64,000 nucleotides of DNA, from positions 186,001-250,000 of the forward strand of contig NZ_BLXX01000003.1 of the NCBI RefSeq assembly GCF_014193515.1, in the 5' to 3' direction. The notes under the pieces were generated by a model. It was given only the letters and a program-made list of their open reading frames with translations. It was not told the DNA's origin and made no database searches. This document shows, in pieces, positions 1 to 19,030 of this stretch. Numbering within the stretch: the stretch's first letter is position 1; each line of letters starts with the position of its first letter. This DNA comes from Geomonas silvestris (lineage in GTDB: Bacteria > Desulfobacterota > Desulfuromonadia > Geobacterales > Geobacteraceae). A program made the translations under genes and the position numbers.

Positions 1-554
1 CACCTCTGACAGCGACTTCCAGATCCGGCAGGCATTGATTCACCACAGTCGGGGCAAATTTTCTCTCCTATTTCTAGACAAGGTTTGCAAAGGCGTCTCC
101 CATTGGGGGTTATTTGAAGAGGGCGGTGCCGGCGACACGCAGCACAGGTGCCATGATGCTTCCGTGCACATTGAGGACAAACCGGGATATTGATTCCCGC
201 ACTCTTAGCAGTCGTTAGGCGACTTGAGGTCTTACCGCAAATCCCGCAGGGCTTGCCTTCTCGGAAATGAGGCGCACAGCTCGTGCAAGCCGGGCCGTAA
301 GGGGTTATTTTCCCAACCTCGTATTCTGTCTTTCCGCACCGAATGCATGGCTTGTCTCGTTCGCACTTTTTACAAATTGCATTCGTGTCATTATTGGGAA
401 GTCTTGCTATGTTGCCACACCTCGGGCAGAGGGCCCGCTTGAAGATGCGCTTGTAGCAGGTCGTACAATATCGGCGACCTTTACAGACCCGATGCGCTTT
501 TGCGATGCCTCGGCCACACTCATCGCAGGTAAACTTTACAGCGGGTTCTTTCAC
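1..554 (-). CDS. Multi-zinc-ribbon protein of the Tn7-like element (partial, runs off the left edge)
   Basis: An open frame starts with GTG at 554 and stays open to base 1, giving about 184 residues without a stop. A GAGGTGA ribosome site overlaps the tniQ stop codon, so it is probably translated with the tns operon. The protein has eleven CxxC pairs at residues 10/13, 30/33, 43/46, 61/64, 70/73, 90/93, 103/106, 126/129, 136/139, 156/159 and 167/170. Pairs alternate in a period of about 27-33 residues, so two CxxC pairs probably make one zinc ribbon, giving five units and the start of a sixth. Between them it is rich in Lys and Arg. This suggests a nucleic-acid or protein docking array. Any C-terminal domain lies outside the window and no function can be assigned. 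Seen: frame and motifs. Inferred: zinc binding and a role with the transposon. Confidence 0.75.
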   Translation of the reverse strand, partial: MKEPAVKFTCDECGRGIAKAHRVCKGRRYCTTCYKRIFKRALCPRCGNIARLPNNDTNAICKKCERDKPCIRCGKTEYEVGKITPYGPACTSCAPHFREGKPCGICGKTSSRLTTAKSAGINIPVCPQCARKHHGTCAACRRHRPLQITPNGRRLCKPCLEIGEKICPDCGESMPAGSGSRCQR

Positions 555-558
555 TAAG

Positions 559-1686
559 TCACCTCATCTTTCGTTGAAGCCTAGCCAATTTCCGCATAAT
601 GACCCCTTTGGGACAAGGTTTGATTCGCCTAAATGACGGTGTTTCCAGAATCTTTCGAAAAGTTTTGCTCGTAGTGGGGAGGCGGGAGAGGATGTGGTCA
701 ATGCTCGCAGGAGGACTTTGCTTAACATCGCAAAGAGAGGCCTTGGTAAGACCAACTGCGATTGCCGCTTCCAAAAAAACCGCTGGTCCTAAATTTAACA
801 ATTGAGAGGTCGCGGCCAGTAGGGAGTCCCTTTCGTGAGCTGGAAGGAGTTCTAGTGGCAATCCCGTGGCAGGAGTTGAAAGCTGTTCGATATCGACTCC
901 AAGGGTCGCTATGAGTTCTACCAACCTCAGGGGTCTAGAACGTAATGATTTTCTCAATAAAGTCAAAAAAAATCTACAGAGATTAAACCACTCTCGGGCA
1001 GTAAGTTGATCAGATCCATAACACACACCTACACCGCATAGCGCCTGATCCGCTAAGGTTTGAAAGGCGAGGGCTCTCGCCTTTGTCTGTGCCACATGAC
1101 CATCTCGAAGGTCGCTCTTACAACTCGCGCAGACTGCTAAGTCGCGGTCACCTGCGGATAATCGGTGCGGCTCGATTGGCCTCCGGCAAGTAGAGCATTT
1201 GTCTAATAAAAGAACACGATGTTTCTGACAGCCAGAGTGCCAGGCAAATCTCCAGTGAAGCCGGTAATAAGGAATCCTATCTTCGGCAAGGCACCTTGGA
1301 CAAAACTGCAGACCGCCGTGTCTAATCCTATTACGTGCTCCAACTGCTAAAATCCATGGCCACACAGCGTTAGGTTGTAGCGGTCTCTGGTTGAGCTCGC
1401 CAATGGTGGGCCCCAGCGTTGCCGCTGACAACCATTCCTCTCTAACTCCTGATAAAAAGGAGAGCTGCCCCAGTTTACCTTGCAGCCCACCACGATCGAA
1501 ATCAAGGGTCCACACCCTCCATTTTGGCCAGAGTGAACCGGTGAGCACCAGAGGATCACAGCCGTGATCTAGGGCAGCCCGGGTTAGCCACGACGACAGC
1601 AACTCATCTGGCAGCAATTGCACGGGCACAGCCCATCGTGGGACTACATCATTACTTCCCGGATGCCACGAGTAGGGTGTAGCCAT
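559..1686 (-). CDS. tniQ: TniQ/TnsD family target-selection protein
   Basis: TniQ proteins recognise the target site and recruit the TnsC ATPase in Tn7-like transposition. The frame is open further upstream, but the ATG at 1686 has a strong GGAGGGG site in front of it and gives 375 residues (MATPYSWHPG...). The N-terminal TniQ motif (VPVQLLPDELLSSWLTRAAL) is at residues 20-39. Zinc-binding cysteines follow: CPRC 129-132, C153/H156, CSTC 164-167 and CASC 186-189. The start lies 43 bases inside tnsC, in another frame. At 375 residues it is shorter than Tn7 TnsD (about 500) and longer than small CRISPR-associated TniQ. Because the element sits in comM, this protein is the likely comM site selector (inference). 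Confidence 0.85.
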   Translation of the reverse strand: MATPYSWHPGSNDVVPRWAVPVQLLPDELLSSWLTRAALDHGCDPLVLTGSLWPKWRVWTLDFDRGGLQGKLGQLSFLSGVREEWLSAATLGPTIGELNQRPLQPNAVWPWILAVGARNRIRHGGLQFCPRCLAEDRIPYYRLHWRFAWHSGCQKHRVLLLDKCSTCRRPIEPHRLSAGDRDLAVCASCKSDLRDGHVAQTKARALAFQTLADQALCGVGVCYGSDQLTAREWFNLCRFFLTLLRKSLRSRPLRLVELIATLGVDIEQLSTPATGLPLELLPAHERDSLLAATSQLLNLGPAVFLEAAIAVGLTKASLCDVKQSPPASIDHILSRLPTTSKTFRKILETPSFRRIKPCPKGVIMRKLARLQRKMR

Positions 1687-2540
1687 GATTTCCCCTCCAC
1701 AATGGACTTGTCTATCTGCTCCTTGCCAGTTCTGATTGCTTCGACTGAACATTCAACGAGTAACCGGTGAAGATTGCCGATATTCCCTTCGCAAATGGCA
1801 TGCAGCAGAGTAGCTAGATTTGGGTCGGAGAGTTTCGATGGCCTTCTTAGTGGAAGGACCGTTTCAAATCCTGCAAGTAAACGCTGGAAATCAGCATCAA
1901 GGGACCATAGTGGAAGCGAAACAACATCAAACCGACTGGCATGTTGTGGGTCAGAGTGTAGGACTCGAACCGCCTCACGTGTTCCGACTCCAACTATCGG
2001 TATTCCCAACTCGTTACACAGAAGCTTCAACGCGTTCATCACTTCTCTCTGCTTCACTGCAGTACCCGTCAGCAGTGAATGAAATTCGTCGATGATAAGG
2101 ATTTTGGTGTGACATAGCCTTAAAAGGTGGATTACCTGGTAACGTAGTTTATAAACCGGATCGGTCGCTCTATATGGAGTAAAGAAGCGTTCGAGAATGG
2201 AAATGTAGAGGCTTTTTTCGTCGGCGCTGGGTGGTGCTTCCGCTAATATGACGGGTTTAACAGGCTCAGAGTCATCGTTAACGTAGCCATTGCCGCAAGT
2301 CTCACGGAAGCGTCGTACTATCGTCGTCTTGCCGTTATTCGGATCACCTACAATAAGCAGATTCGGCATCCGTGGGCGGGTAGGCTTCAACATAAGCCCC
2401 AGCAGGGTGTCCGTAATCTGTTTAGCATGTTTGTAGCCTATCCATCGCGGTTGATCTAGAAACGCGATTCGTTCAATGCCAGATAAACCCATCACGTGTC
2501 GAAAGTCAGGGTGGATGTGATCGTAACTGCAAGTGGTCAT
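1644..2540 (-). CDS. tnsC: TnsC/TniB family AAA+ transposition ATPase
   Basis: TnsC-type ATPases connect the target selector to the transposase and polymerise on target DNA. The 298-residue protein has Walker A GDPNNGKTT at residues 65-73 and Walker B ILIIDEFH at 146-153, in the TniB/TnsC arrangement. Its length is nearer TniB of Tn5053-like elements than Tn7 TnsC (about 555). The ATG overlaps the tnsB stop as ATGA and follows a GGAG site, so translation is probably coupled. The 3' end overlaps tniQ. Confidence 0.9.
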   Translation of the reverse strand: MTTCSYDHIHPDFRHVMGLSGIERIAFLDQPRWIGYKHAKQITDTLLGLMLKPTRPRMPNLLIVGDPNNGKTTIVRRFRETCGNGYVNDDSEPVKPVILAEAPPSADEKSLYISILERFFTPYRATDPVYKLRYQVIHLLRLCHTKILIIDEFHSLLTGTAVKQREVMNALKLLCNELGIPIVGVGTREAVRVLHSDPQHASRFDVVSLPLWSLDADFQRLLAGFETVLPLRRPSKLSDPNLATLLHAICEGNIGNLHRLLVECSVEAIRTGKEQIDKSIVEGKSWLHPTRGIREVMM

Positions 2541-4459
2541 TCGACATCTCCGAATGGGTTGAAATCGTCGCCAAGGTCAGAAAGAGTGGTCATCGAATTT
2601 GTCGCGTTTTGTACCGGTGCGACAGCTAAAACAGGAGTGGCTGGGGAAATATTTTTCTCATGTTCCTTGCGCCGTTGTGCCTGGCGACGCGCTTTCTTGG
2701 TTTTCTCTTGTGCGGCGTCTACCTTTGAGCGTAGTTCTGTTATCGCCAGGAGGATCTGGTGCTGATTAACACTTTTCACGCCTTCACGTTTTAACTTTTC
2801 ACGCGCCTGCTTGTATTCCCAAATGCTCATCGATGGCATTGATTGGTCGGCAAAGGGAATTTTAGAATAGTGCTTCAGGTCTGGGTCAAAGAACCAGATC
2901 GCGCTGATGTCTCTTGGATCGCGGCGAAATACAAGTTCACGTTTTTTTGCAGGATTGTCGGGTGCTGACGCATTAATCCACGGCCGGAGAGCATCGGCAT
3001 AGTAGGATATATCGTCGATGGTTACCCCGAAGGTCTGAACGGTTCGCCGAAAAGCAGGGAGAAAGTCAAGGAGTACGGTAAGCCTATCTTGCGGACGTGG
3101 AGGAATTCCTATCCCATGTAGATCTCCGTTGCCGAAGATTCCAACTTCCCATTTGCGCAGAGGCGACATTCCAATACCAGAATGCATCCGCTGATGGTAG
3201 ACCTTGCATATGAGGGTAACCAACCACTCCTCAAATTCAGACTTCGTCAACGCTGCATGCTTCTCAGAATCATAGTCCGATCGTTCTTTGAGCGATGAGA
3301 AAGTTGTGCCGGGGAGGTCATGGATCTCTCTTAGCAGGGTCCCTAGCATCCGCTCGATGTGGCCACCGTACCTTGGAGTTTTGACAGGTCTGAACTCGAG
3401 AGTAATGCCATATGTCAAACATGATCTTTCGAAGTTATTGGACCTAAAGTCAGGTCCATTATCGACAAAGATTTTCTGAGGGATGCCCCAGACGGGCCAA
3501 TCCGCATCAACCTTGTGTAGCGCAAGCCAATCCTCTTTAGGGAGCATGGAATGCGAAACGCACATTGCAACCGATGTCTCTGATGGAGGGTCAAACGACA
3601 GGTAGTATCCAGTGACGATCCGGGTGCAGACATCAATAGCCAATGTAATCCAGGGACGGCCGATCGGCTTTCTGAAAATATCATCTACGAGGATAATATC
3701 TGCAGGTGTGTGGTCGATTTGCACAACGGCTAAGGGGAAATTCGCATTCGGGAAACTACCTGGTGCCGGTTGAAACTTATTGATTGCTCGTTCCCTAAAT
3801 CCTCGCCCGCGGAGAATCTCCCTTTCCGACAACTTCCCTAGTCGATTCCTGATAGTACTGGGGCTGGGAACTTCAATTAACCTCTGCTGACAGCGTCGCT
3901 GCACCTCAATGATAACCTTTTGAACCTTCGGCCTCTGCGGAGTTAGGTAATAGTCGGTGATCACCTCCGAAATGACTTTGTCGGCAAATGCGGGGAGACG
4001 GTGTTTTCCGGATTTCCAGCCCCTCTTAAAGGGTATTAGAGCGGATACATCGCCATAGGCTTTGTAGCGTTTAAGCCAACGATAGAGGGTAGCGGTATTT
4101 ATCCCAACTTCATTGGCTCGCTGCTCGACCTCCTGGCGGCTGTGTTGCGGCATATGGATGAGTGGTTTAATTGCGGCAAACCGTTCCTCGGCTATCCGCC
4201 AATCGGCGTCAGCGATTTCTGCCAGGTCTTCAGAGCATAGTGCTATTCCATCTTGGTCAATAGAACGCATGTCCGCTATCAAGAGCGGGCAACTTCGTCC
4301 ATTTTCAACGTTTATACCTATTGCTGATTCGAAATTTAAAATCTGGGTCACTCGGTAGACGTCTTGTCCGCATCGGACAAAGCGGCCGACCTGTACATCA
4401 ACGCTCTTTCGAATGGGTTCGAAGGCCTCATTGGAGACATCATTATCATTCTGAGTCAT
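2537..4459 (-). CDS. tnsB: TnsB/TniA family DDE transposase
   Basis: This is the strand-transfer transposase of the element (640 residues). The sequence shows an N-terminal helix-turn-helix region around residues 105-135 (NEVGINTATLYRWLKRY), then an integrase catalytic core with D249 (QIDH), D333 (FVDNG) and E369 (HIERMLGTL), followed by a Mu-type C-terminal beta-barrel and a basic, charged tail. In Tn7 the tail of TnsB contacts TnsC. The start overlaps the end of tnsA by 14 bases. Codon use is visibly less GC-rich than in host genes from 5.3 kb onwards, in line with horizontal acquisition. Confidence 0.93.
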   Translation of the reverse strand: MTQNDNDVSNEAFEPIRKSVDVQVGRFVRCGQDVYRVTQILNFESAIGINVENGRSCPLLIADMRSIDQDGIALCSEDLAEIADADWRIAEERFAAIKPLIHMPQHSRQEVEQRANEVGINTATLYRWLKRYKAYGDVSALIPFKRGWKSGKHRLPAFADKVISEVITDYYLTPQRPKVQKVIIEVQRRCQQRLIEVPSPSTIRNRLGKLSEREILRGRGFRERAINKFQPAPGSFPNANFPLAVVQIDHTPADIILVDDIFRKPIGRPWITLAIDVCTRIVTGYYLSFDPPSETSVAMCVSHSMLPKEDWLALHKVDADWPVWGIPQKIFVDNGPDFRSNNFERSCLTYGITLEFRPVKTPRYGGHIERMLGTLLREIHDLPGTTFSSLKERSDYDSEKHAALTKSEFEEWLVTLICKVYHQRMHSGIGMSPLRKWEVGIFGNGDLHGIGIPPRPQDRLTVLLDFLPAFRRTVQTFGVTIDDISYYADALRPWINASAPDNPAKKRELVFRRDPRDISAIWFFDPDLKHYSKIPFADQSMPSMSIWEYKQAREKLKREGVKSVNQHQILLAITELRSKVDAAQEKTKKARRQAQRRKEHEKNISPATPVLAVAPVQNATNSMTTLSDLGDDFNPFGDVE

Positions 4460-5144
4460 GTTCGGGTATCCAGAGTTCGGTGAAATCGTTCAGGGGCAGG
4501 GTTATATCGCAGTCAAGTTGCCGTAACGCAAGTAAATGCCAAAGGTGAGCTATGCCCTGGCCTCTATATATGCCCATGAAGTGGCGGGCCAGGAGGTAGT
4601 GGAAGGGAGCGGACCCCATTTCCTGAACGGTTTTCAGAATATATTCGCTCTCTTCGTGTGAGAATTGCATCCTTTTATAGCGCTCAAGAAAGGTAATATT
4701 CAAAAATGCGACGTCACGGATTCGTGATTCGTCGTGGATGCGAAAAATCCAACCCTGCTGTTTAGCATAGGCATAGGCCGCTTTCCATTTAGGGAGCCAC
4801 TTTCGCCAATTTTTGCGCCACTCTTGAGCTGGTTTAACTTCGACCAGTAATGGCTTGGTGTAACCTGGGAAAGAAGCTGTGCCAAGTTTGTAGAAGACTA
4901 GAAAATCAGGGGTGTAATTGAAAGACTGTCCATTCAGGACGAAGGGGATTTGGCAAGGTTGCGGGATAACGTCCTGCACTGAAAGACTGAAATCCTTTCG
5001 GATAATAAAGTCGCGTTCGAGAGCAGATTCATACTGGATATGCTTCTCCAGGCGAAATGGGTAGTACCCTGACACGCTTCGGCGTGTGGGGCCAATCTTC
5101 CTAGTCTGCTGGGGGAGGGGGCTGTCGCAATTATTTCTTCGCAT
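4446..5144 (-). CDS. tnsA: TnsA family endonuclease
   Basis: TnsA nicks the 5' ends of the transposon so that, together with TnsB, the element moves by cut-and-paste. The 232-residue protein carries the nuclease signature: ESALERDF (residues 39-46), YTPDF with D80, and LLVEVKP with E102 and K104. These match the E-D-ExK layout of TnsA. It is first in the operon. No strong ribosome site precedes ATG 5144. TCGCA repeats resembling transposase-binding sites overlap the start codon (5139-5143) and the first codons (5125-5129), which suggests self-repression. Confidence 0.88.
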   Translation of the reverse strand: MRRNNCDSPLPQQTRKIGPTRRSVSGYYPFRLEKHIQYESALERDFIIRKDFSLSVQDVIPQPCQIPFVLNGQSFNYTPDFLVFYKLGTASFPGYTKPLLVEVKPAQEWRKNWRKWLPKWKAAYAYAKQQGWIFRIHDESRIRDVAFLNITFLERYKRMQFSHEESEYILKTVQEMGSAPFHYLLARHFMGIYRGQGIAHLWHLLALRQLDCDITLPLNDFTELWIPEHDSE

Positions 5145-5257
5145 TGTGAACTCAGTCGCAGCTAATTCAGGGTTTGGATCGCAATAATTTAGAAACTTTT
5201 CGGTTCAACTCGCTAAAACTTTAATACCAGTAGTCGCATCAAATGTCAAAAGTCACA
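5125..5257. repeat. Transposon end with TCGCA-type repeats (putative TnsB-binding sites)
   Basis: Six copies of TCGCA or TCGCT lie at 5125, 5139, 5156, 5179, 5210 and 5234, all in the same orientation. Most are followed within a few bases by an A/T-rich stretch such as taatt, ataatt or aaat. The outermost copy is about 20 bases inside the terminal ACA. Tn7-like ends carry several directly repeated, roughly 20-bp TnsB sites, so this arrangement is expected. The left-end sites that would confirm it are not in the window. Confidence 0.6.
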
Positions 5258-5931
5258 GCAGCAATACCCCGAAGCCAGGCGAGGTCTCGCTCTCGCACAA
5301 CGGCGTCCTTTTCCTGGACGAGCTTCCCGAGTTCAAGAAGCATGTCCTCGAGGTGCTGCGCCAGCCCATGGAGGACGGCCGGGTCACCATCTCCCGCGCC
5401 CTCTCCAGCGTCACCTACCCGTCGCGAATCATGCTCGTTGCCGCCATGAATCCGTGCCCCTGCGGCTACCAGGGGGATCCCGTACACCTCTGCTCCTGCA
5501 CGCCGCTCATGATCCAGCGCTACCGTTCGCGCATCTCGGGTCCGCTTTTGGATCGCATCGACATCCACATCGAAGTCCCGGCGGTGAAGTTCCGTGACTT
5601 GGCCGACCGCGGCGAGGGGGAAACCTCGGAAGCCATCGCGGCGCGGGTGGCCCGTTCCCGTGAGGTGCAGAAGGAGCGCTTCAGGGGGACCCGGGTGCAC
5701 TGCAACGCCCAGATGTCGGCGCGCATGATCCGCAAGTTCTGCGAGCCCGACGCGGCGGGGAACCGGATGCTCGAGATGGTCACCGACCGCCTGGGCCTCT
5801 CCGCCAGGAGCTACACCAGGATCCTCAAGGTCGCCCGCACCATAGCCGACCTCGAGCTTGCCGAGCAGATCAGGGAAACCCACATCTCCGAGGCGATCCA
5901 GTACCGCAGCCTGGACCGCAAAACCGGATAG
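5258..5931 (+). pseudogene. comM: comM (yifB) 3' fragment, Mg-chelatase-like AAA+ ATPase, interrupted by transposon
   Basis: ComM is a hexameric branch-migration helicase that helps integrate DNA during natural transformation. About 224 codons remain. The frame opens at the transposon junction with S-N-T-P-K-P-G-E, then Walker [11 protein letters not shown], the MNPCPCGY zinc-like motif, the [17 protein letters not shown] sensor region and the C-terminal Mg-chelatase domain, ending at TAG 5929-5931. The N-terminal half with Walker A is missing, so this piece cannot be active alone. No start codon with a ribosome site precedes it. If the insertion is exact, the five bases 5258-5262 (gcagc) should be duplicated at the far end. 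Confidence 0.9.
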
Positions 5932-5995
5932 GAGAAAAAAAGATCGCACCGGCGAAACTGCCCGGTGCGATGATGGATTGCCATGGAAATTAATG

Positions 5996-6022
5996 GCCGG
6001 GCCGGTAATGGCCCGGCTTTTT
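5996..6022 (+). terminator. Rho-independent terminator after comM
   Basis: An 8-bp GC stem (gccgggcc / ggcccggc) with a short loop is followed by five T. A second hairpin, with 10-bp arms atcgcaccgg and ccggtgcgat, lies just upstream at 5943-5971. The pair ends comM transcription and also separates it from the convergent metalloprotease gene. Confidence 0.8.
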
Positions 6023-6024
6023 CG

Positions 6025-8220
6025 TTAGGGGAGCACCTTCACGAGGACTGACTTGCTGACCGAGACGTTTCCGGCCGCGTCCTTCACCCACGCGTACATG
6101 GCCTTGGTGCCGGTGGTCGAAAGCGTGAAGCTGGTCGGGACGGTCGTGCTCCACCCGGAGGCTGCGGCGGTCGGTGCGGTGGAGTTCTCGGTGATCAGGT
6201 AGGCCTTTACCCCAGAGTTGTCGTCCGTGCCGGCGAAGGTGACTGCCACGGTGCGCGTGGCGGATTGCGCCGGGGCGCTGAAGCTTGCGACCACGGGCTT
6301 GGTGGTGTCGACGTTGACCGTCGCGCTGGTCGAGGCGGAGACGTTGCCGGCGGTATCCTTCACCCAGGCGTAGAGGGTCTTGGAGCCCGAACCGGAGACC
6401 AGCACGCTTACCGGCTTGGTGGCACTCCAGGTGGTGGGCGCGGTGTTGCTGGTGGTGACGGCATAGCCGGCGATGCTGACGTTGTCGCTCGCGGTGAAGG
6501 AGCTGATCGGGATGGTGAGCGAAGCCGAGATCGCGGGGACCGTGAAGGCGCTGATGCTCGCTGCGGTGGTGTCGATGGTGACGGCTGCGCTCTTGGCGAG
6601 CGAGACGTTGCCCGAGCTGTCCAGCGCCCAGGCGTACAGGGTCTTCGCGCCGTCAGCGGTGTTGCTCGCGAAGGTGTAGCTTTTCGGCGCAGTAGCGGAC
6701 CAGCCAGTGCTCGCCGACGGAGCGGTCGAGCTCGCGGTGACCTGGAAGCCGACGACCTTGACGTTGTCGGTGGCGGTAAAGGTGGTGATGGGCACGGTCA
6801 GGCTCTTCACCGGGGTGCTGGGGAGGGCGAAGACCGAAACCGCCGGTTTCGTCAGGTCGACGATGCAGGGGGCACTCTTCAGCACGGAGACGTTACCGGC
6901 TGCGTCTTTGGCCCAGGCGTAGAGCGTCTTGGCGCCGGCGGCGCTCACGGTGTAGCTGGTCGGGGCGCTGGAGAGCCAAGCTGCGCTGGCAGTCGGCACG
7001 GTCCCGGTTTCGGTTATCAGGTATCCGGCGACGCCGCTGTTGTCGTCGCTGGCGGCGACAGTGACCGGGACGCTGAGCGAACCGTACTGGGCGGGGACCG
7101 TGAAGGTCCCGACCACCGGCTTGGTCAGGTCCACGTTGACGGTGGCGCTCGCCGAGGCGGAGACGTTGCCCGCTGCGTCTTTCACCCAGGCGTAGAGGGT
7201 CTTGGAACCGGCGCCGGTAACGATGAAGCTGACCGGCTTCGTTGCGCTCCAGACGGTCGGCGCGGTGTTGGTCGCGGTGATGGCGTAGCCGGTAATGGTG
7301 CCGTTGTCACTTGCGGTGAAGGAGCTGATGCGGACCGTGGCCGACGCCGAGAGGGCGGGGACCGTGAAGGCGCTGATGGCCGGTGCCGTGGTGTCGATCG
7401 CGACGGCGGCACTCTTGGCAAGCGAGACGTTCCCCACGGTGTCTACGGCCCAGGCGTACAAGGTCTTCACACCGTCGGCGGTGTTGCTGGCGAAGGAGTA
7501 GGTCTTGGGGGCCGTACTGCTCCACCCGGTGCTCGGCGAAGGGGCGCTCGCGCTCTCGGTGACCTGGTAGCCGGCAACCTTGACGTTGTCGGTGGCGGTG
7601 AAGGTGGGAATGGTCACGGTCAGGCTCTTCACCACGGTGGTGGGGAGGGTGAAGGCCGAGACTACCGGCTTCGTCAGGTCGACGACACAGGGGGCCGATT
7701 TGGCGACGGAGACGTTGCCGGCGGCATCCTTGGCCCAGGCGTAGAGCGTCTTGGCGCCGGCGGTGCTCACGGTGTAGCTGGTCGGCGCGCTGGCAAGCCA
7801 GGTGCTAGCGCCGGCGGCGGGGACCGTGGCGCTCTCGGTTACCAGGTAGCCGGTTATCACGCTGCTGTTGTCGCTGGCGGCGATGGTGACCGGCACGGTG
7901 AGCGAGCCGTACTGTGCCGGAACCGTGAAGGTGCCCACCACCGGCTTCGCCAGGTCGATGGCGACCGTGGCCGAGGCCGGGCTGGATACGTTGTTGAGCG
8001 CGTCTTTGACCCAGGCGTAGAAGGTGTAAGAGCCGCTGGTAGCGCCGGTGGCGACTACTGCGGTGGGGGGCGCGGCGAGCCAGCCGGTGGCGCTGACCAG
8101 CGGCGCCGTTGAGGTTGTGGTGATCTTGTAGCCGGTGATCTTGTTGTCGCCCGCGCCGCTGAAGGCGGTAACCGGTATGGTGAGCGAATTCACGTTGGGC
8201 TTCATGGCGAAGCTGGCCAC
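6025..8220 (-). repeat. Eight in-gene repeats of about 270 bp, arranged as a duplicated triplet
   Basis: Within the protease gene, repeat units R1 to R8 each encode about 87-95 residues. R2-R3-R4 and R5-R6-R7 match each other unit by unit: GTFTVPAQYGSL opens R2 and R5, KSLTV marks R3 and R6, and ISAFTVPA opens R4 and R7. This points to one duplication of a three-unit block after the three types had diverged. R1 and R8 are more distant edge units. Confidence 0.85.
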
Positions 8221-9870
8221 CGAGAGGGCCGTGCTCGTCTTGAGGTCCGCCGTCATGCTGGTTCCGCGCGCCGAGATGTTGGTCACCGAGAAATTGCTGG
8301 CGGTGCCGTCGTAGTACGCCGAGTTCACCAGGGAACCGGGGGTGAAGGCGGCGTTGTTGCCGGAGTAGAAGGTGGTGGCGGCGCTGCCACGGCAACCGCT
8401 GGTCAGCATGTTGCACACGGCGGTGCTGGCCTGCGTCGGAACCACACCCTGGTGTGCGCCGGCATGGTACGCGTTGAGGTCGTTGGCGCCCAGAGTGCCC
8501 ACGGTCAGGTCGATGTGGGTGATCAAGAGCCCCCCGGCATATCCGCTGGTAAGTCCGGTGATGCCGGCATCCCAGCCGGTGGGGGGGCGGTTTTCCGCGA
8601 GCCAGTACTCGGTGGGGCGCTCGGGGCGTGCCAGCTTGAGGGCGGAGTCGTTGGCCGACAGTGCGCTCGCGATGGTCACCGAACCTGCGCTGGGGGCGAC
8701 CGGGGTGGTCCAGCCCAGGAACTCGCGGGACCAGGCGTCCATAGCCACCGGGGTGGAACCGACGGCCTGGTTAGGGAGCGTACCCCAGCTGCCGCCGGCC
8801 ATGACCGAGAAGTTACCCAGTCCGGCGTTGAAATTGGTGGTGTCGTAGAGGTCGGGAAGGCCGGTCATCAGGTGCCCAAGTTCGTGGACGATGACACCCA
8901 CCGGATGCTGCTGATCACTGTTGTTCAGTTCGCCGCACAGTGCCCAGCCGGTGATGGTCTTGCTCCCCATGGGGATCGAGCCGCTCCAGGCATGGGCCCA
9001 GATCTTCGGCGTCTTGGAGCTCCCCGAGTTCTCGTAGCCGGCGTAGACCAGGAACACCTCGTCGTTGGACGGATCGAAAGAGCTCAGGTCGACGGCGCTC
9101 ACCGCCTGGGCGAGAGCATGGCCGATGACGGTGGTCTCCAAGGTGTAGTTGTAGGAGTTGCCGGAGTTGGGATGGCTGTCGGGGATGGTCACCGCCACCA
9201 CGCCGGGGTGCGTTCCCCCCGTGAAGGCAGGTGCCACGGTGAGGGTGCCGAAGGAGTTGTCCTTGTAGAAGTTGGCCACGGATTTGGCGCCGGGTGTGCT
9301 GTCGAAAACCTCGCTGTACCAGGCGTCGGGGGTGGTGACCAGCGTGCGGTTGGCGAAGTTCACCAGGACGATCAGGAGCTTCTTGGTTCCCGAAACCGGC
9401 ACCGGTGTCCAGTCGCCCGCGGCGCCGTACACCACCCCGGCCGGAGTGCCCGCCCCGGTGGAGCCGTCCAGGGAGACGGAACCGGCGGGAAGCCGCTGCT
9501 GCAACTTCCGTTTCAGGTGATCCTTCTGGCGCTTCTCACCTGCGGTGTCCCGGACCGGTTTGACCCCCTTGGGTAAGAAGGAGGGCGCGAACTTGCCGGC
9601 GGGCTCAACCTTGACTCCGGAAGCCTTCAGCGACCCGTCTGGCAGCTGCTCGGCGTATTCCCAGTGTTGGGTCGTCGGGTTCTTCACCACGGTGTGCCCG
9701 CTCTCTGTCGATTCAATCCAGTTCTGGAACTCGTCGCCGTGGACCTTACCTTTGAAGGTGGAGCCGTCCGGCTGCTGGAGATCGATGCTGTCCGGCATGG
9801 CAGGCCCGGCATAGGCTATGGTTGACATAGCGAGCATCAACGTCGTGGCAAGCACAAGCAATCTGGTCAT
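6025..9870 (-). CDS. Secreted M6 family metalloprotease with eight C-terminal repeats
   Basis: This is an extracellular zinc protease of the immune-inhibitor-A type, 1281 residues. ATG 9870 is chosen because GGAGGG precedes it and it begins a clear signal peptide (MTRLLVLATTLMLAMSTIAYA). The M6 catalytic motif HELGH is at about residue 330, followed by the family's GLPDLYD. The catalytic part covers about the first 550 residues. The rest is eight repeats of about 90 residues, each ending in a variant of YAWxKDAAGNVS, like bacterial Ig-like or adhesion modules. There is no obvious sorting signal or membrane anchor at the C-terminus (KVLP). Substrate unknown. It is monocistronic, convergent with comM and preceded by a long leader. 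Confidence 0.9.
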   Translation of the reverse strand: MTRLLVLATTLMLAMSTIAYAGPAMPDSIDLQQPDGSTFKGKVHGDEFQNWIESTESGHTVVKNPTTQHWEYAEQLPDGSLKASGVKVEPAGKFAPSFLPKGVKPVRDTAGEKRQKDHLKRKLQQRLPAGSVSLDGSTGAGTPAGVVYGAAGDWTPVPVSGTKKLLIVLVNFANRTLVTTPDAWYSEVFDSTPGAKSVANFYKDNSFGTLTVAPAFTGGTHPGVVAVTIPDSHPNSGNSYNYTLETTVIGHALAQAVSAVDLSSFDPSNDEVFLVYAGYENSGSSKTPKIWAHAWSGSIPMGSKTITGWALCGELNNSDQQHPVGVIVHELGHLMTGLPDLYDTTNFNAGLGNFSVMAGGSWGTLPNQAVGSTPVAMDAWSREFLGWTTPVAPSAGSVTIASALSANDSALKLARPERPTEYWLAENRPPTGWDAGITGLTSGYAGGLLITHIDLTVGTLGANDLNAYHAGAHQGVVPTQASTAVCNMLTSGCRGSAATTFYSGNNAAFTPGSLVNSAYYDGTASNFSVTNISARGTSMTADLKTSTALSVASFAMKPNVNSLTIPVTAFSGAGDNKITGYKITTTSTAPLVSATGWLAAPPTAVVATGATSGSYTFYAWVKDALNNVSSPASATVAIDLAKPVVGTFTVPAQYGSLTVPVTIAASDNSSVITGYLVTESATVPAAGASTWLASAPTSYTVSTAGAKTLYAWAKDAAGNVSVAKSAPCVVDLTKPVVSAFTLPTTVVKSLTVTIPTFTATDNVKVAGYQVTESASAPSPSTGWSSTAPKTYSFASNTADGVKTLYAWAVDTVGNVSLAKSAAVAIDTTAPAISAFTVPALSASATVRISSFTASDNGTITGYAITATNTAPTVWSATKPVSFIVTGAGSKTLYAWVKDAAGNVSASASATVNVDLTKPVVGTFTVPAQYGSLSVPVTVAASDDNSGVAGYLITETGTVPTASAAWLSSAPTSYTVSAAGAKTLYAWAKDAAGNVSVLKSAPCIVDLTKPAVSVFALPSTPVKSLTVPITTFTATDNVKVVGFQVTASSTAPSASTGWSATAPKSYTFASNTADGAKTLYAWALDSSGNVSLAKSAAVTIDTTAASISAFTVPAISASLTIPISSFTASDNVSIAGYAVTTSNTAPTTWSATKPVSVLVSGSGSKTLYAWVKDTAGNVSASTSATVNVDTTKPVVASFSAPAQSATRTVAVTFAGTDDNSGVKAYLITENSTAPTAAASGWSTTVPTSFTLSTTGTKAMYAWVKDAAGNVSVSKSVLVKVLP

Positions 9871-10222
9871 AACTGTTCCCTCCGGGACAAAAGTGTCTAG
9901 CCTGTGCGAGCTTAAACCGTGCCAGCGGGCCACCTAAGAGAAGTGACTAAAAAACAGGTGGATAAAGAGGGGGGCTGCCCGCCGGAGCTGCTTCGGGCAG
10001 TTCAAATTTTGCATGCTGTAAAAGTTTCGAACAGCAACGGGATAGGAAAAGGGGCGCTGTGCTCTCGATAAGGGTGTTCTGGCCGCACAACCGTCGACTG
10101 CGCGGAGAGGCGTCTCGTGACCATCCGGGGTTTCGCTGGCTGGTGCCTTTTGCCGGTACACAAAAGGCCGTGACGGGATCAGTTTCCCGCACGGCCTTTG
10201 GGCATCTTCGTGGTGAATTTTT
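9871..10222. other. Intergenic region upstream of the metalloprotease gene
   Basis: The 352 bases hold the alcohol dehydrogenase terminator (10163-10199) and then about 290 bases that must contain the protease promoter and leader on the minus strand. The stretch 10050-10160 is GC-rich with several short self-complementary parts and could fold, but I could not match it to a known riboswitch. Minus-strand open frames here look like chance frames. Confidence 0.5.
10163..10199 (-). terminator. Terminator after the alcohol dehydrogenase gene
   Basis: Long GC-rich arms (aaaggccgtgacggg and cccgcacggccttt) form a near-perfect hairpin. Read on the minus strand it ends in TTTTG. It lies 24 bases past the dehydrogenase stop codon. 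Confidence 0.8.
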
Positions 10223-11212
10223 TTACGGGGAAACGACCAGCACGCCGGCCCCTTTGACCCGTCCGGCCTTGAGGTCGGCCAGAGCTTCATTGGCGGCTTC
10301 CAGCGGGTAGAGCTGCACTTCGGTGCGGACCGGCACGCGGGGGGCGATCTCCAGGAACTCCTCGCCGTCCCTGCGGGTAAGGTTCGCGACGGAGCGCAGC
10401 ACGCGCTCGCCCCAGAGGAGGCGGTACGGGAAACTCGGGATGTCGCTCATGTGGATCCCCGCGCAGACCACCGTCCCCCCCTTACGTACCGCTTCAAGCG
10501 AGGCGGGAACAAGCTCTCCCGCCGGGGCGAAGATGATGGCGGCGTCCAGGGCGTCGGGCGGGAGCTGATCCGCGGCGCCGACCCAGACGGCGCCCAGCTG
10601 GCGGGCGAACTGTTGTCCTTCGTGGTCACCCGCACGGGTGAAGGCATAGACTTCGCACCCCTGCCAGCGCGCCACCTGGATGATGATGTGGGCCGCGGCG
10701 CCGAAGCCGTAGATCCCGAGCCGGCGGGCATCACCGGTCATGCGCAGCGAGCGGTAACCGATCAGGCCGGCGCAGAGCAGCGGCGCCGCCTGCAGATCTC
10801 CGAAGCCTTCGGGAAGGGCGAAGCAAAAACGCTGGTCGGCGACGGCGTACTCGGCGTAGCCGCCGTCCAGGTGGTAGCCGGTGAAGCGCGCCCTATCGCA
10901 GAGATTCTCTCTTCCTTCGTTGCAGTCCGGGCAGCAGCCGCAGGTGGAGCCGAGCCACGGCACGCCGACCCGGTCTCCCGGTTTGAACTGCGTGACGCCG
11001 CTCCCCGAGGTCACCACCCGCCCAACGATCTGGTGTCCCGGCACCAGCGGCAGCTTGGGTTCAGTCAGCTCTCCGTCCAGGATGTGCAGATCGGTGCGGC
11101 AGATGGCGCAGGCGGCCACCTTGATAAGCAGCTGCCCCGGGCCGGGTGCAGGTATCGGCAGGTCCCTCAACTGCAGGGGAGTGCCCGGTTTCAGAAGTAC
11201 CATCGCTCTCAT
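10223..11212 (-). CDS. Zinc-dependent alcohol dehydrogenase
   Basis: This is a medium-chain NAD(P)-dependent alcohol dehydrogenase that interconverts alcohols and aldehydes, 329 residues. It shows the catalytic zinc region CAICRTDLHI, the GHQIVGRV motif, the structural zinc cluster CGCCPDCNEGRENLC and the Rossmann nucleotide-binding segment (LGIYGFGAAAHI). ATG 11212 (MRAMVLLKPG) is preferred because GGAG lies 8 bases upstream and family members start this way; the frame is open 15 bases further. It is a single gene and its substrate cannot be told from sequence. Confidence 0.88.
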   Translation of the reverse strand: MRAMVLLKPGTPLQLRDLPIPAPGPGQLLIKVAACAICRTDLHILDGELTEPKLPLVPGHQIVGRVVTSGSGVTQFKPGDRVGVPWLGSTCGCCPDCNEGRENLCDRARFTGYHLDGGYAEYAVADQRFCFALPEGFGDLQAAPLLCAGLIGYRSLRMTGDARRLGIYGFGAAAHIIIQVARWQGCEVYAFTRAGDHEGQQFARQLGAVWVGAADQLPPDALDAAIIFAPAGELVPASLEAVRKGGTVVCAGIHMSDIPSFPYRLLWGERVLRSVANLTRRDGEEFLEIAPRVPVRTEVQLYPLEAANEALADLKAGRVKGAGVLVVSP

Positions 11213-11446
11213 CAGTGCCATCTCCACTGAATGTAGAATGTTCCACTAAGTTCATGTCTGTCGGCCAAGCCTAATACTACACACACTTCAGTCATTATCC
11301 AAGTGCGAGCAGGCCGTCTCCCGTTGGCAGAAGATGAGCTGCAGTGGAGTCTTGCGCCTTAGCTCAAAGCTGTGCCAGCAAATTCTGGAAGAGATTCAGT
11401 GCACCCCGAAAGGGGAAGGCTGATCAGCACTCTAACGCCTGGGTTC

Positions 11447-12160
11447 TCAGCGGGATACGGCAGAGACGAGGTGGGCGAGCAGCGGGGCGCTGAGGACGTT
11501 GAGCAGGCCGACCAGGACCATGACCAGGCCGGCGATGGCACCTACCTCGCTGTCGATCTGATGCGCCTTTGCTGTGCCGGCACCGTGGGCCCCCATGCCG
11601 AGCAGCGCCCCACGGGCCAGCGCCGAACGAAAGGGGAGGCAGCTCAGCAGGAGTTCGCCGATGGTTGCACCGAGAACGCCGGTGATGACCACGAAGACGG
11701 AGGTGAGCGCCGGAACGCCGCCGATATCGCCGGAAACCACCATGGCAAACGGAGTGCTCATGGAGCGCGGCAAGAGGCTCAGGCACACGGTGGCGTCGAG
11801 GCCGAAGAGCTCGGAAAGGAACCAGGAAGAGATGACGGCAGTGCAACTGCCCGCGACGACCCCCACCAACAGGAGCATCCAGTGCCGGCGAATCAGCGCG
11901 CGCTGCTCGTAAATCGGGATCGCGAAGGCGACGGTAGCAGGACCAAGCAGCATCATGAGCCAGTGCGTCCCGCGGATATACTCGGCATACCGGACGTGGC
12001 CGATCAGGGCGGCCGCGATAAGGAGAACCGGGGTGAAGACGAGCGGCGAGGTGAAAAGGCTCGGGCGGCGCGCGTTCAGGTATTTTCCCAGGGCGTAGAG
12101 GGCCACGGTCAAAAAAGACCAGAAAACCGCGTGAACAAGCAGCTGCTCATCACACCACAT
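11447..12160 (-). CDS. lrgB: LrgB/CidB family membrane protein
   Basis: This is the partner of the holin-like LrgA/CidA protein, 237 residues with several hydrophobic segments. The conserved family stretch (SLLPRSMSTPFAMVVSGDIGG) and the later GMGAHGAGTAKA motif are visible. Start ATG 12160 follows a GGGGAG site and overlaps the lrgA end by 11 bases, so the two are co-translated. In other bacteria the pair affects autolysis and export of small organic acids such as pyruvate. Confidence 0.85.
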   Translation of the reverse strand: MWCDEQLLVHAVFWSFLTVALYALGKYLNARRPSLFTSPLVFTPVLLIAAALIGHVRYAEYIRGTHWLMMLLGPATVAFAIPIYEQRALIRRHWMLLLVGVVAGSCTAVISSWFLSELFGLDATVCLSLLPRSMSTPFAMVVSGDIGGVPALTSVFVVITGVLGATIGELLLSCLPFRSALARGALLGMGAHGAGTAKAHQIDSEVGAIAGLVMVLVGLLNVLSAPLLAHLVSAVSR

Positions 12161-12563
12161 CGCAGTTCTCCCCACGGTTCACCCACCGATAGCACAGATC
12201 GATGGCCGCACCCGTCACCACCATGATGGCGATCGTCCCGAAGAGGATCACCGCCAGGATCTTCAATCCCAGCATGCCGAGCAGTTCGGGATGATCGAGC
12301 ACCGCGAGGACCGCAGGGATGAAGAAAAGGAGCATCTCGGCCAGAAACCACTGGGCCCCGCGGCGAACCGTCAGGATGTTCAGTCGCCGGGTGATCAGCA
12401 GCAACAGCACGATGAACAGGCCGAGCACCGAGCCCGGGATCATCAGGTGAGTGGTGCGCGCGATTCCTTCGCCTGCCGCCCAGAACAGCAGGATCAGCAC
12501 AATTTGGAAGAAGCGGCTGGAGCGCAAGGGTCTCCAGAGCGAGGTGCGTAGATAACTGGTCAT
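12150..12563 (-). CDS. lrgA: CidA/LrgA family holin-like protein
   Basis: This is a small inner-membrane protein (137 residues) with four predicted hydrophobic helices and the conserved IPGSVLGLFIVLLLL segment. ATG 12563 is chosen for the GGGAGAG site just upstream. It is first gene of an lrgAB-like pair, divergent from a LysR regulator; that layout resembles cidR-cidAB of Gram-positives, so the regulator probably controls the pair. Confidence 0.85.
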   Translation of the reverse strand: MTSYLRTSLWRPLRSSRFFQIVLILLFWAAGEGIARTTHLMIPGSVLGLFIVLLLLITRRLNILTVRRGAQWFLAEMLLFFIPAVLAVLDHPELLGMLGLKILAVILFGTIAIMVVTGAAIDLCYRWVNRGENCDVV

Positions 12564-12662
12564 CTGTCTCTCCCGTGTTTCCGATGTTTGAATCATAGGT
12601 TGTTCTGTGGTATTCGTAAAATGAAGATTTCGACTCGAACCGATTCTGATCAGGAATAGTAT

Positions 12663-13535
12663 ATGGAGATGCGGACCTTACGGACCTTCGTCGAGGTGGT
12701 GCGGCAGGGTGGATTTTCCCGTGCGGCCAAGACGGTCTTTGTCACCCAGTCCACGGTGAGCAAGGCGGTCAAGCAGCTGGAAGACGAGCTGGGGCTGCAG
12801 CTATTGGACCGGATCGGCGCGAACGTGAAGCTCACCGCCGCCGGAGAGATCGTCTACCGCCGTGCACTCGCGATTCTGGCCCAGGGGGACGACCTGAAAG
12901 CGGAGCTCGAGGAGCTGCGCGGGCTTAAGGGGGGCGTACTGCGCCTTGGGGTGCCGCTCATCGGCAGCAACACGCTCTTTGCCCACCGCTTCGCCGCCTA
13001 TCGAAACCGCTACCCCGGGATCGAGCTGCAGCTCATGGAACACGGCAGCAAGCGGCTCGAGGAGTTGGTGCTGGCAGGGGAGCTGGACCTGGCGGCGACG
13101 CTGTTGCCGGTCGGTGAGGAGTTCGAGTGGCAGGAGGTCTGGCGCGAGCCGATCGACGTGCTGCTTCCGGCGGAGCACCCGCTGGCCGCCTCAGAGAAAC
13201 TCTCGTTCCGGCAGCTTAAGGACCTCCCCTTCATCCTCTACGGTCCGGGCTTCGCGCTGAACCAGATGATCCTCGATGCCTGCCGGGAGAGCGGCTTCAC
13301 GCCGAAGGTCTCGGCGCAGTCGAGCCAGGTTGATTTCGTGATCGAGCTGGTCGCCACGCGGTTAGGGGTGGCGCTATTGCCGCGCATGATCGCCGAGCAG
13401 CGGCCGCATCCCCTGACCCGGCGGGTTCCGGTCGAGCAGCCGGCGCTCTTTTGGCACCTGGCGCTCATCTGGCGGCGCGGCGGCTACCTCTCCCCTGCGG
13501 CTCAAGCCTGGCTTGCCTTGGCTGCGGAAACCTGA
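12663..13535 (+). CDS. LysR family transcriptional regulator (CidR-like position)
   Basis: A 290-residue regulator has an N-terminal winged helix-turn-helix (TFVEVVRQGGFSRAAKTVF, then TQSTVSKAVKQLEDELGLQL) and a C-terminal periplasmic-binding-like effector domain. It is divergent from lrgAB with 99 bases between the starts, the usual position for a LysR protein acting on its neighbour. The effector is unknown. Confidence 0.88.
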   Translation: MEMRTLRTFVEVVRQGGFSRAAKTVFVTQSTVSKAVKQLEDELGLQLLDRIGANVKLTAAGEIVYRRALAILAQGDDLKAELEELRGLKGGVLRLGVPLIGSNTLFAHRFAAYRNRYPGIELQLMEHGSKRLEELVLAGELDLAATLLPVGEEFEWQEVWREPIDVLLPAEHPLAASEKLSFRQLKDLPFILYGPGFALNQMILDACRESGFTPKVSAQSSQVDFVIELVATRLGVALLPRMIAEQRPHPLTRRVPVEQPALFWHLALIWRRGGYLSPAAQAWLALAAET

Positions 13536-13620: not shown

Positions 13621-14106
13621 ATGAAACAGAAACTCCCGGTGCTGCTGGCTCTTATTCTGTTGTTTGCAGTTTCGTTCACCGTTACCGCCACTCCGGCCGC
13701 CGCGGCGCCGGAATACCGGCTCTCCAAAGGGCAGACTGTGTACGTGCCGGTCTACTCCAACGTCTTCAGCGGTCCCAGAAAGCGCCCGTTCCAACTGGCC
13801 GCTACCTTGAGCGTGCGGAACACCGACCCTGCTGGCTCGCTTAAGATAACCGCCATCGACTACTACGACACCAACGGAAAGCTGGTGCGCCGCTACCGCA
13901 CCGGTGCGCTTTCTTTGGGCCCCCTGGCCTCGGCGGATTTTCACATCGACGAGAAGGACGTAGCTGGCGGCTTCGGTGCCAACTTTATCGTGAGGTGGGA
14001 AGCGGACCGCGCCATAAACGCCCCGATCATCGAGTGCGTCATGATCGGAACCGCGTCGGGGCAGGGGATCTCGTTTGTGAGTCCGGGGCAGGAGATCAAG
14101 GAGTAG
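13621..14106 (+). CDS. DUF3124 family exported protein
   Basis: The 161-residue protein has an N-terminal signal peptide (MKQKLPVLLALILLFAVSFT...AAAA) and a beta-rich mature part containing YVPVYSNVF and the ATLSVRNTD stretch typical of DUF3124. ATG 13621 follows AAAAGGAGG. It should be periplasmic or exported; the function of the family is not known. It lies between REP-like elements. Confidence 0.8.
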   Translation: MKQKLPVLLALILLFAVSFTVTATPAAAAPEYRLSKGQTVYVPVYSNVFSGPRKRPFQLAATLSVRNTDPAGSLKITAIDYYDTNGKLVRRYRTGALSLGPLASADFHIDEKDVAGGFGANFIVRWEADRAINAPIIECVMIGTASGQGISFVSPGQEIKE

Positions 14107-14147
14107 CGAGCAGAGGGAAGGGGATGATGGCAGCAGGGGAAGATCGA

Positions 14148-14290
14148 GGGGGACAGGCACCAATTAATAATGGCCTGTCAAATGTTGGCCGCTTGACAGG
14201 TCGGATCTCCACAAAGAGCAGATGTTGTACAACGAGTGGATGAGCGGTTGTCAAAAAGGGGGACTGGCACTTTGCGGAGCCAGTCCCCCT
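14148..14290. repeat. REP-like repeats, copies B (half) and C (full)
   Basis: A half copy (gggggacaggcacc at 14148-14161) and a full palindrome (gggggactggcac...gccagtccccct at 14258-14290) lie in the 252-base gap between the DUF3124 gene and lon. On the minus strand copy C is followed by five T, so it can serve as the lon terminator. The rest of the gap shows nothing else. Confidence 0.7.
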
Positions 14291-14358
14291 CGACGTTTTC
14301 AGGTACCTGAGATGCGTTTCTCTTCTCGTCAGGCCGCTTTCGGTTTTTCCTTCACCTT

Positions 14359-17011: not shown

Positions 17012-17719
17012 GTGTCGAAAAAGATCCTGCTTGTAGATGACGATGCCGGCCTGTGTCAGCTGCTTCAAAGCTACCTGGGTGGCGAGGAGTTCGAGGTGGT
17101 TACGGTTCATGAGGGGAAGGCGGGAGCTGCAGCTGCACTCGAAGGGGATTATGCGGCGGTGATCCTCGATGTGATGCTGCCGGGGCTGAACGGCTTCGAG
17201 GTGCTGCGCAAGCTGCGCCAGGTCTCTGAGGTGCCGGTGCTCATGCTGACGGCGCGGGGCGAGGAGGTGGACAGGATCGTGGGGCTGGAGCTTGGGGCTG
17301 ACGATTACCTCTGCAAACCGTTCAACCCGCGCGAGCTGATCGCCCGGCTGCGCGCCATCCAGCGGCGCAGCGGGATCCTGCCGCACGAGGGACGCCCCGG
17401 GACGCTGGTGGTTGGGGATGTCGCCATGAACCTGGGGACCCGCACCCTGTACTGTTCGGGGGAGTCCATCGACCTGACCTCATCCGAGTTCTCGGTGCTG
17501 GAGGTGTTGCTGCGGCTGGCCGGAACCGTGGTGACCCGCGAGGAGCTGACCCGGCAGGCGCTGGGGCGCGAGTTCCGCAGCTTCGACAGGAGCGTCGATG
17601 TCCATGTAAGCGGGCTGCGCAAAAAGCTCGGCACAGGGCTGGACGGCGGTGACAGGATCAAGTCGGTGCGCGGGGTGGGGTACCTCTATGGGTACTCGCC
17701 TGAGTGGCAAAACCAGTAA
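17012..17719 (+). CDS. OmpR/PhoB family response regulator
   Basis: A 235-residue two-domain regulator. The receiver domain has acidic DDD at residues 9-11, phospho-acceptor D53 (VILDVMLPG) and K102 (CKPFN). The C-terminal winged helix binds DNA (SFDRSVDVHVSGLRKKL). It starts with GTG behind GGGAG. It stands just before macA-macB-NodT in the same direction, so it probably controls them. The kinase gene that usually follows such a regulator is absent; only 106 bases separate it from macA. Confidence 0.9.
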   Translation: MSKKILLVDDDAGLCQLLQSYLGGEEFEVVTVHEGKAGAAAALEGDYAAVILDVMLPGLNGFEVLRKLRQVSEVPVLMLTARGEEVDRIVGLELGADDYLCKPFNPRELIARLRAIQRRSGILPHEGRPGTLVVGDVAMNLGTRTLYCSGESIDLTSSEFSVLEVLLRLAGTVVTREELTRQALGREFRSFDRSVDVHVSGLRKKLGTGLDGGDRIKSVRGVGYLYGYSPEWQNQ

Positions 17720-17825
17720 CACCCTTTCACAGGAACACAGAGGGGAAAACCGAGGAAGGGCAGGAGAAAATCTGGAAACTGGAAAACCTTCGAATGCGGA
17801 ACGCAGTCACAGATCAGGAGAATCA

Positions 17826-19028: not shown

Positions 19029-19030
19029 CC

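Follow-up and report, generated by a model that had tools for sequence, protein, structure and literature searches.

How did a transposon come to lie within the comM gene of a Geobacter-like bacterium, and by what means did it find this gene? The question is raised by the left end of a 64,000-nucleotide stretch of the Geomonas silvestris genome (contig NZ_BLXX01000003.1, positions 186,001 to 250,000), which we call the window and which corresponds to G000:C3:186001-250000 in our coordinates, G000 being the genome and C3 the contig. A previous inspection of the bare sequence, hereafter the sequence-only reading, had noticed there a Tn7-like element abutting a comM gene that lacked its N-terminal half. 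Our analysis leads us to conclude, with high confidence, that comM is interrupted here by an entire Tn7-like transposon of the TnsF-bearing Tn6022 type, targeted by its own TnsF. The split gene, the element ends, the target duplication, the gene set and the use of the same base and orientation by relatives are read directly from the DNA.

The right junction lies at window 5257|5258 (...AAAAGTCACA|GCAGCAATACCCCGAAGCCAGGCGAG). As the sequence-only reading had described, the tnsA end of the element stops with ACA at 5257 and the comM frame resumes at once, remaining open up to the stop at 5931. The TIGR00368 profile matched two comM pieces on one strand, namely a 5′ half at C3:165841-166689 (model positions 1-283) and, with 24.6 kb between them, a 3′ half whose match covers C3:191263-191907 (model positions 284-499). 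This 3′ part, which extends from Walker B to the C-terminus, occupies 5258..5931 on the + strand and is cut off from the 5′ half, located outside the window. The sequence TGTGACTTTT... directly follows the 5′ half, while ...AAAAGTCACA directly precedes the 3′ half, and GCAGC|TGT is found at C3:166685, exactly where the 5′ half ends. The element spans from C3:166690 to window 5257 (24,568 bp), starts with TGT, finishes with ACA and is bordered on each side by GCAGC, the left copy of this target duplication being at C3:166685-166689 and the right copy at window 5258..5262. Thus, the 5′ half of comM, the terminal TGT and the second GCAGC that the sequence-only reading had proposed to look for at the far end were all found there, and no intact comM frame exists upstream of 5258. 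The element has a G+C content of 49%; the two measured flanks have 61% and 64%.

Joining the two halves with a single GCAGC restores an open reading frame, while the 5′ half by itself stays open for six codons of the element before a stop. The 5′ half terminates with ATC GGC GGC AGC and the 3′ half restarts with GC AGC because the 5-bp target is duplicated. No GGC codon has therefore been lost at the insertion point, contrary to what had been supposed. The neighbouring motif had also been taken for a conserved GGG; it is Gly-Gly-Ser-Asn in 13/13 intact comM genes read from the host genus, and the joined frame carries this same motif. Elsewhere in the family, four comM genes belonging to three genera showed GGGN in three cases and GGSN in one. 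The junction precedes the Pro-Gly-Glu codons by 17 nt, a distance counted by eye because the script returned no value for G000. Taken together, a split gene, an exact 5-bp duplication, TGT/ACA ends and transposase genes exclude a chance arrangement.

The gene order from the right end is tnsA, tnsB, tnsC, tniQ and tnsF, all on the - strand. Specifically, tnsA (4446..5144, 232 aa) matches PF08722 and PF08721, tnsB (2537..4459, 640 aa) encodes a DDE transposase matching PF09299, tnsC (1644..2540, 298 aa) encodes a TniB-type ATPase matching PF05621, and tniQ (559..1752) matches PF06527 and encodes a short protein of at most 397 aa, its start codon not being settled and its frame overlapping tnsC. 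Each of these four proteins scored above its Pfam cut-off. In the right end of the element (5123..5257, - strand), the terminal TGT, read as ACA on the + strand, occupies 5255-5257, and repeats of the TGCGAC type at 5232-5239, 5154-5161 and 5123-5130 are probably TnsB sites. WTGCGACW-type direct repeats number 2 and 3 in the two ends, within 160 bp; with up to one mismatch allowed, the element interior gives an expectation of ∼0.24 per 160 bp and strand. Near the far end, on the opposite strand, a gene of 589 aa (L006 1573-3342, on the scale of our locus L006) has homologues in TnsF-bearing loci and plasmids and is probably tnsE. The component list of the sequence-only reading, TnsABC-TniQ, is thus borne out for its four members but omitted TnsF and the probable TnsE.

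The candidate for target recognition is the product of the gene adjoining tniQ. The 5′ part of tnsF, encoding a cysteine-rich N-terminal region, lies at window 1..554 on the - strand, and the whole gene (C3:185118-186554) encodes 478 aa with no match in Pfam or NCBIfam. Among the matches listed, this protein showed 34-36% identity over nearly its full length to Acinetobacter proteins, several of which have a TniQ family protein annotated next to them, and 51% identity, also nearly full length, to a protein of a Methylobacter plasmid. According to the available text of PMC10293859, TnsF of Tn6022 (earlier called orf3 or tniE) is the experimentally shown comM selector of that element: its zinc fingers precede a tyrosine recombinase that is inactivated, and it binds TniQ, depends on a 10-bp stretch within the Walker B codons and is required, alongside TnsA, TnsB, TnsC and TniQ, for transposition into comM. 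The G000 protein has the same cysteine-rich N-terminus and, like Tn6022 TnsF, is devoid of the ∼110-residue tail found in two aligned TnsF proteins of the Tsy type (YRec-HTH-TnsF elements). We also modelled the structure of the 51% identical homologue from a Deltaproteobacteria bin (L096), with a mean predicted local distance difference test score (pLDDT) of 85.6 and a predicted template modelling score (pTM) of 0.50. The nearest solved chains were XerD, XerA, lambda integrase, an integron integrase, an archaeal Xer and XerH, with Z values between 6.0 and 7.8, for the most part within residues 303-391, and Foldseek ranked XerH and Cre at the top. The predicted fold therefore appears to resemble Xer-type core-binding domains, which agrees with the published description of TnsF and is not proof alone.

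A single scan of our genome collection with the TnsF alignment yielded 33 loci, mostly from Pseudomonadota but including one Verrucomicrobiota genome (L103), a Riflebacteria bin (L095) and the Deltaproteobacteria bin L096. In 23/33 of these loci, L103 and L096 included, the orientation is the same and the TnsA end adjoins the 3′ comM half. In 20 of these 23, L122 and L123 from Acinetobacter being two of them, the element terminates with ACA exactly 17 nt ahead of the Pro-Gly-Glu codons; G000 does so too, which confirms that the element occupies the same comM position as Tn6022-family elements. Two further loci use the same position with ends AGA (L105) and TCA (L126) instead of ACA, and L115 has its junction at 18 nt. 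In L106, where both comM halves were read, the duplication is GCGGC (by eye), and the GTGGC following the junction in L122 and L123, once reverse-complemented, equals GCCAC, the duplication published for Tn6929 (PMC12904642, available text). Terms for a printed duplication did not occur in the accessible part of PMC7508600. A. baumannii record L025 was discarded as a comM junction example since the stretch beside its TnsA end carried no comM motif, and L122 and L123 were used.

In a phylogenetic tree computed without L101, L119, L125, L127 and a Halomonas plasmid protein (P0004), G000 TnsF grouped, on a long branch, with 31 other Tn7-associated TnsF rows (support 99/99), while three Tsy-like TnsF proteins were placed apart (100/99). 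The alignment for the structure work comprised 24 of the 33 loci. We then considered 141 genomes of the order to which the host belongs; a full-length TnsF match was present in G000 only, and four other genomes matched over 230-290 N-terminal residues. Since relatives occupy the same comM base and full-length TnsF is restricted to G000 within the order, the most likely history is a horizontal acquisition of the element, with its own TnsF directing it to comM. The sequence-only reading had left open whether the common site reflects descent or independent choice. Because the element carries TnsF and TnsF relatives insert at the same nucleotide, shared descent of TnsF targeting appears to be the best explanation.

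Several observations weigh against this interpretation. A comM match was lacking at 10/33 TnsF loci: five had short upstream DNA of 0.2-4.9 kb (L095, L098, L104, L124 and L127) and five had 8-10 kb (L101, L109, L110, L111 and L125), one of them being a plasmid. The tree placed L126, which is Tn7-associated and inserted in comM, on the Tsy side, and its branch is very long. The fold matches were middling, with a best Z of 7.8 and no Foldseek match at E <= 0.001, and the 589-aa candidate TnsE obtained neither a Pfam match nor support from a PDB profile search. Nothing here demonstrates that the G000 copy is active. Finally, two other Tn7-like elements of the order, in genomes G025 and G032, sit at the same base or 3 bp from it and no TnsF was found in either, which indicates that TnsF is not the sole route to this site. 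These two elements are what speaks for an independent choice, in which the G000 element would have reached comM through TniQ alone or another selector and would share its site with Tn6022 by convergence on a conserved motif. We consider this unlikely, given that the tnsF gene of G000 adjoins tniQ and that TnsF relatives hold both base and orientation, with 20/23 comM loci at exactly 17 nt.

An assembly artefact, that is, a comM gene apparently split by the joining of unrelated contigs, deserves consideration in a draft genome of 36 contigs. It is very improbable nonetheless: both junctions lie within one 407-kb contig and share the matching 5-bp duplication, the assembly contains no other comM gene with a near-full match, and relatives are arranged alike. 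Still harder to sustain is an insertion of the Tsy type, or by some other tyrosine recombinase, instead of Tn7-type transposition. Tsy elements also possess TnsF, and Tsy-like elements of this order are found near comM residue 306, but the 5-bp duplication, the TGT/ACA ends, the tnsABC-tniQ genes and a TnsF without catalytic tail contradict such an origin.

For TnsF-directed insertion, the experiments with A. johnsonii Tn6022 suggest a mechanism by analogy. TnsF would bind comM DNA around the Walker B codons and TniQ would bridge TnsF and TnsC; TnsC would then bring in TnsA and TnsB, which would bind the end repeats and excise the element. The insertion point would be 17 nt ahead of the Pro-Gly-Glu codons; tnsA would face the 3′ half of comM and 5 bp would be duplicated. 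The probable tnsE might provide a second, plasmid-directed route. As the insertion parts Walker A from Walker B, ComM function should be abolished. ComM is a helicase that aids transformation with heterologous DNA, and its loss lowers transformation in A. baumannii (PMC11472951, available text). The gain for the element is likely to be a conserved, dispensable landing site and perhaps also a weaker removal by transformation; comEC and dprA of the host both gave matches above cut-off, and the retention of these genes makes such an anti-transformation benefit possible.

The cargo is located left of the window, at L006:1402-16656 and 17081-18793 (C3:167402-184793), and looks like defence as judged from gene content. 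It comprises an XRE/ImmA-type regulator (L006 3490-4590), four consecutive genes ending with JetD (5157-13026; JetD_C above its Pfam cut-off), two TcmP genes plus a DUF5131 gene (13639-16656) and an anti-phage dCTP deaminase (17081-18793; NF041025 above cut-off). In the JetD set, the SMC-like gene was under its cut-off and the first two genes had no match; the JetD_C score is the reason to read the set as a putative divergent Wadjet. No resistance island was seen among the cargo genes searched. Defence cargo is known in Tn7-like elements, with JetD in 34 cases (PMC8649781, available text). On the other side of the insertion, just past comM, a frame of 1302 aa (window 6025-9933, - strand) resembles by eye a secreted metalloprotease in which many domains are repeated.

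The same 141 genomes were examined for other interruptions of comM, with the adjacency of elements and breaks read by eye from coordinates. An uninterrupted full-length comM match was present in 72/141 genomes (hand count among the matches listed). For radA (TIGR00416), the sole control gene, 131/141 genomes had a full match, 6 had only partial matches and 4 had none. An element of one of five classes was located at the comM break in 33/141 genomes, at about five sites; the other genomes without full-length comM represent contig ends, poor assemblies or unassigned cases. Double hits, with two classes of element, were found in G036, G121 and G138, and contig C1 of G116 holds an intact comM match (4086318-4087811) plus a copy broken at ∼residue 350 (18346-19443).

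The first class comprises the Tn7-like elements at the present site in G000, G025 and G032. The G025 element (C12 259363-282523; L059, L060) uses the same comM base with duplication GCGGC, and that of G032 (C8/C13/C55; L057, L058, L148) lies 3 bp downstream with duplication GCAAC. Because the latter is split over contigs, its tnsABC-tniQ genes, on C55, are tied to the comM ends by inference only. The TniQ proteins of G025 and G032 measure ∼345-366 aa; TnsA, TnsB and TnsC of G025 are 33-38% identical to those of G000, and TnsB of G032 is 45% identical to that of G025. TnsC of the G032 type was found in 2/395 genomes sampled from the phylum (E <= 1e-50), with best plasmid matches ∼40% identical, while a viral-contig scan with G032 TniQ returned nothing useful and the 554-aa protein at the left end of the G032 element had no plasmid match. 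The second class, also Tn7-like, interrupts comM near codon 75 in G066 (L149, C11) and G121 (L150, L160; C1:74751-92743); it encodes a TniQ of ∼394-410 aa and shows in G121 a duplication AAAGA and TGT/ACA ends (by eye). The third class contains the Tsy-like elements near residue 306 (G008, G096, G109 and G137; L061-L064). In the first three of these genomes, one contig bears the 5′ half of comM together with a gene of recombinase size, a small gene and a long TnsF, and the recombinase was confirmed with Pfam in G008 and G096; the G137 contig stops within TnsF. No GIY-YIG gene was confirmed in this class.

The remaining two classes carry serine recombinases. Large serine recombinases of the fourth class lie within ∼175 bp of a break just before Walker A, at comM ∼residue 216, in 7/12 genomes holding that recombinase at E <= 1e-40 (G007, G031, G036, G041, G046, G123 and G138; L066-L069, L154, L155, L156). 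A different serine recombinase, the fifth class, marks the AMNPCPCG motif of comM at ∼residue 350 (L070-L076 and others), within ∼110 bp of the break in 20/24 genomes holding it at E <= 1e-60 (G019, G021, G023, G033, G036, G068, G075, G079, G087, G091, G093, G098, G103, G104, G108, G112, G116, G121, G125 and G138); in G074, G096, G107 and G122 it does not lie within this distance. Conjugation-like genes follow this recombinase in several genomes (by eye). It is conceivable, at somewhat less than an even chance in our judgement, that comM serves this order as a general hub for landing, reached separately by five classes through three chemistries (Tn7-like transposition, tyrosine recombination and serine recombination), the sites, about five in number, being within or close to conserved ATPase motifs. 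The Tn7-like elements with no detectable TnsF may then use an undescribed selector, and selection would act on the breaking of comM and not just on the finding of a safe site.

In the available parts of the literature, comM is known as the target of AbaR/Tn6022 and of Tsy (PMC10293859), several element types have been described at comM in Acinetobacter, and integrase-bearing elements also hit the gene in Aggregatibacter, Mannheimia, Francisella and Pseudomonas (both PMC4774983, PMC11472951, PMC12904642). As comM is thus already published as a multi-element target for Acinetobacter and some other gammaproteobacteria, any claim of novelty is limited. The accessible text of PMC10293859 mentions neither Geobacter nor Deltaproteobacteria, and within a partial coverage of the literature we found no published account of the second, fourth and fifth classes in this order. 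The breakage of comM by several unrelated elements in the order is more novel than the G000 element itself. The latter extends TnsF targeting, tested so far with Acinetobacter and Zoogloea elements, to a Geobacter-like host and indicates that the insertion base is kept even in distant relatives. In addition, two Tn7-like lineages are now available for seeking new target selectors and, with elements of differing chemistries at the comM break in 33/141 genomes, ComM inactivation as a purpose becomes directly testable outside pathogens.

Among known systems, the G000 element is most readily compared with the TnsABC-TniQ-TnsF family of Tn6022, formed by AjTn6022, the backbones of the AbaR/AbGRI islands and Tn6929. 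Both share the gene set and the order tnsA-tnsB-tnsC-tniQ-tnsF, a short TniQ (up to 397 aa in G000 versus 369 aa reported for Tn6022; PMC10293859, available text), a TnsF without catalytic tail, the 5-bp duplication and the TGT/ACA ends; in Acinetobacter, L122 and L123 use the same comM base and orientation. The probable TnsE has an opposite-strand homologue in Acinetobacter plasmids that encode TnsF. In contrast, identity to Acinetobacter TnsF is only 34-36%, the host is Geobacter-like and the cargo is defence-like. Tsy resembles the G000 element in its TnsF family and in having comM as target (PMC10293859, available text). It differs by a longer, tailed TnsF, a tyrosine recombinase operon, a break near residue 306 and the absence of visible Tn7 genes; the missing TnsF tail and the presence of tnsABC place G000 outside Tsy. 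Tn7 shares with G000 the TnsABC core and a 5-bp duplication, but relies on a long TnsD instead of a short TniQ plus TnsF, and spares glmS whereas the G000 element breaks comM. The closest relatives examined are those of the Methylobacter sp. YRD-M1 plasmid (L024) and of the Deltaproteobacteria bin HGW-8 (L096), each of which shares 78% identity in TnsC, 67% in TnsB and 66% in TnsA with G000. L024 carries DUF5131 and TcmP genes beside tnsF, like G000, but resides on a plasmid, outside comM, while the L096 element is inserted at the same comM base as that of G000.

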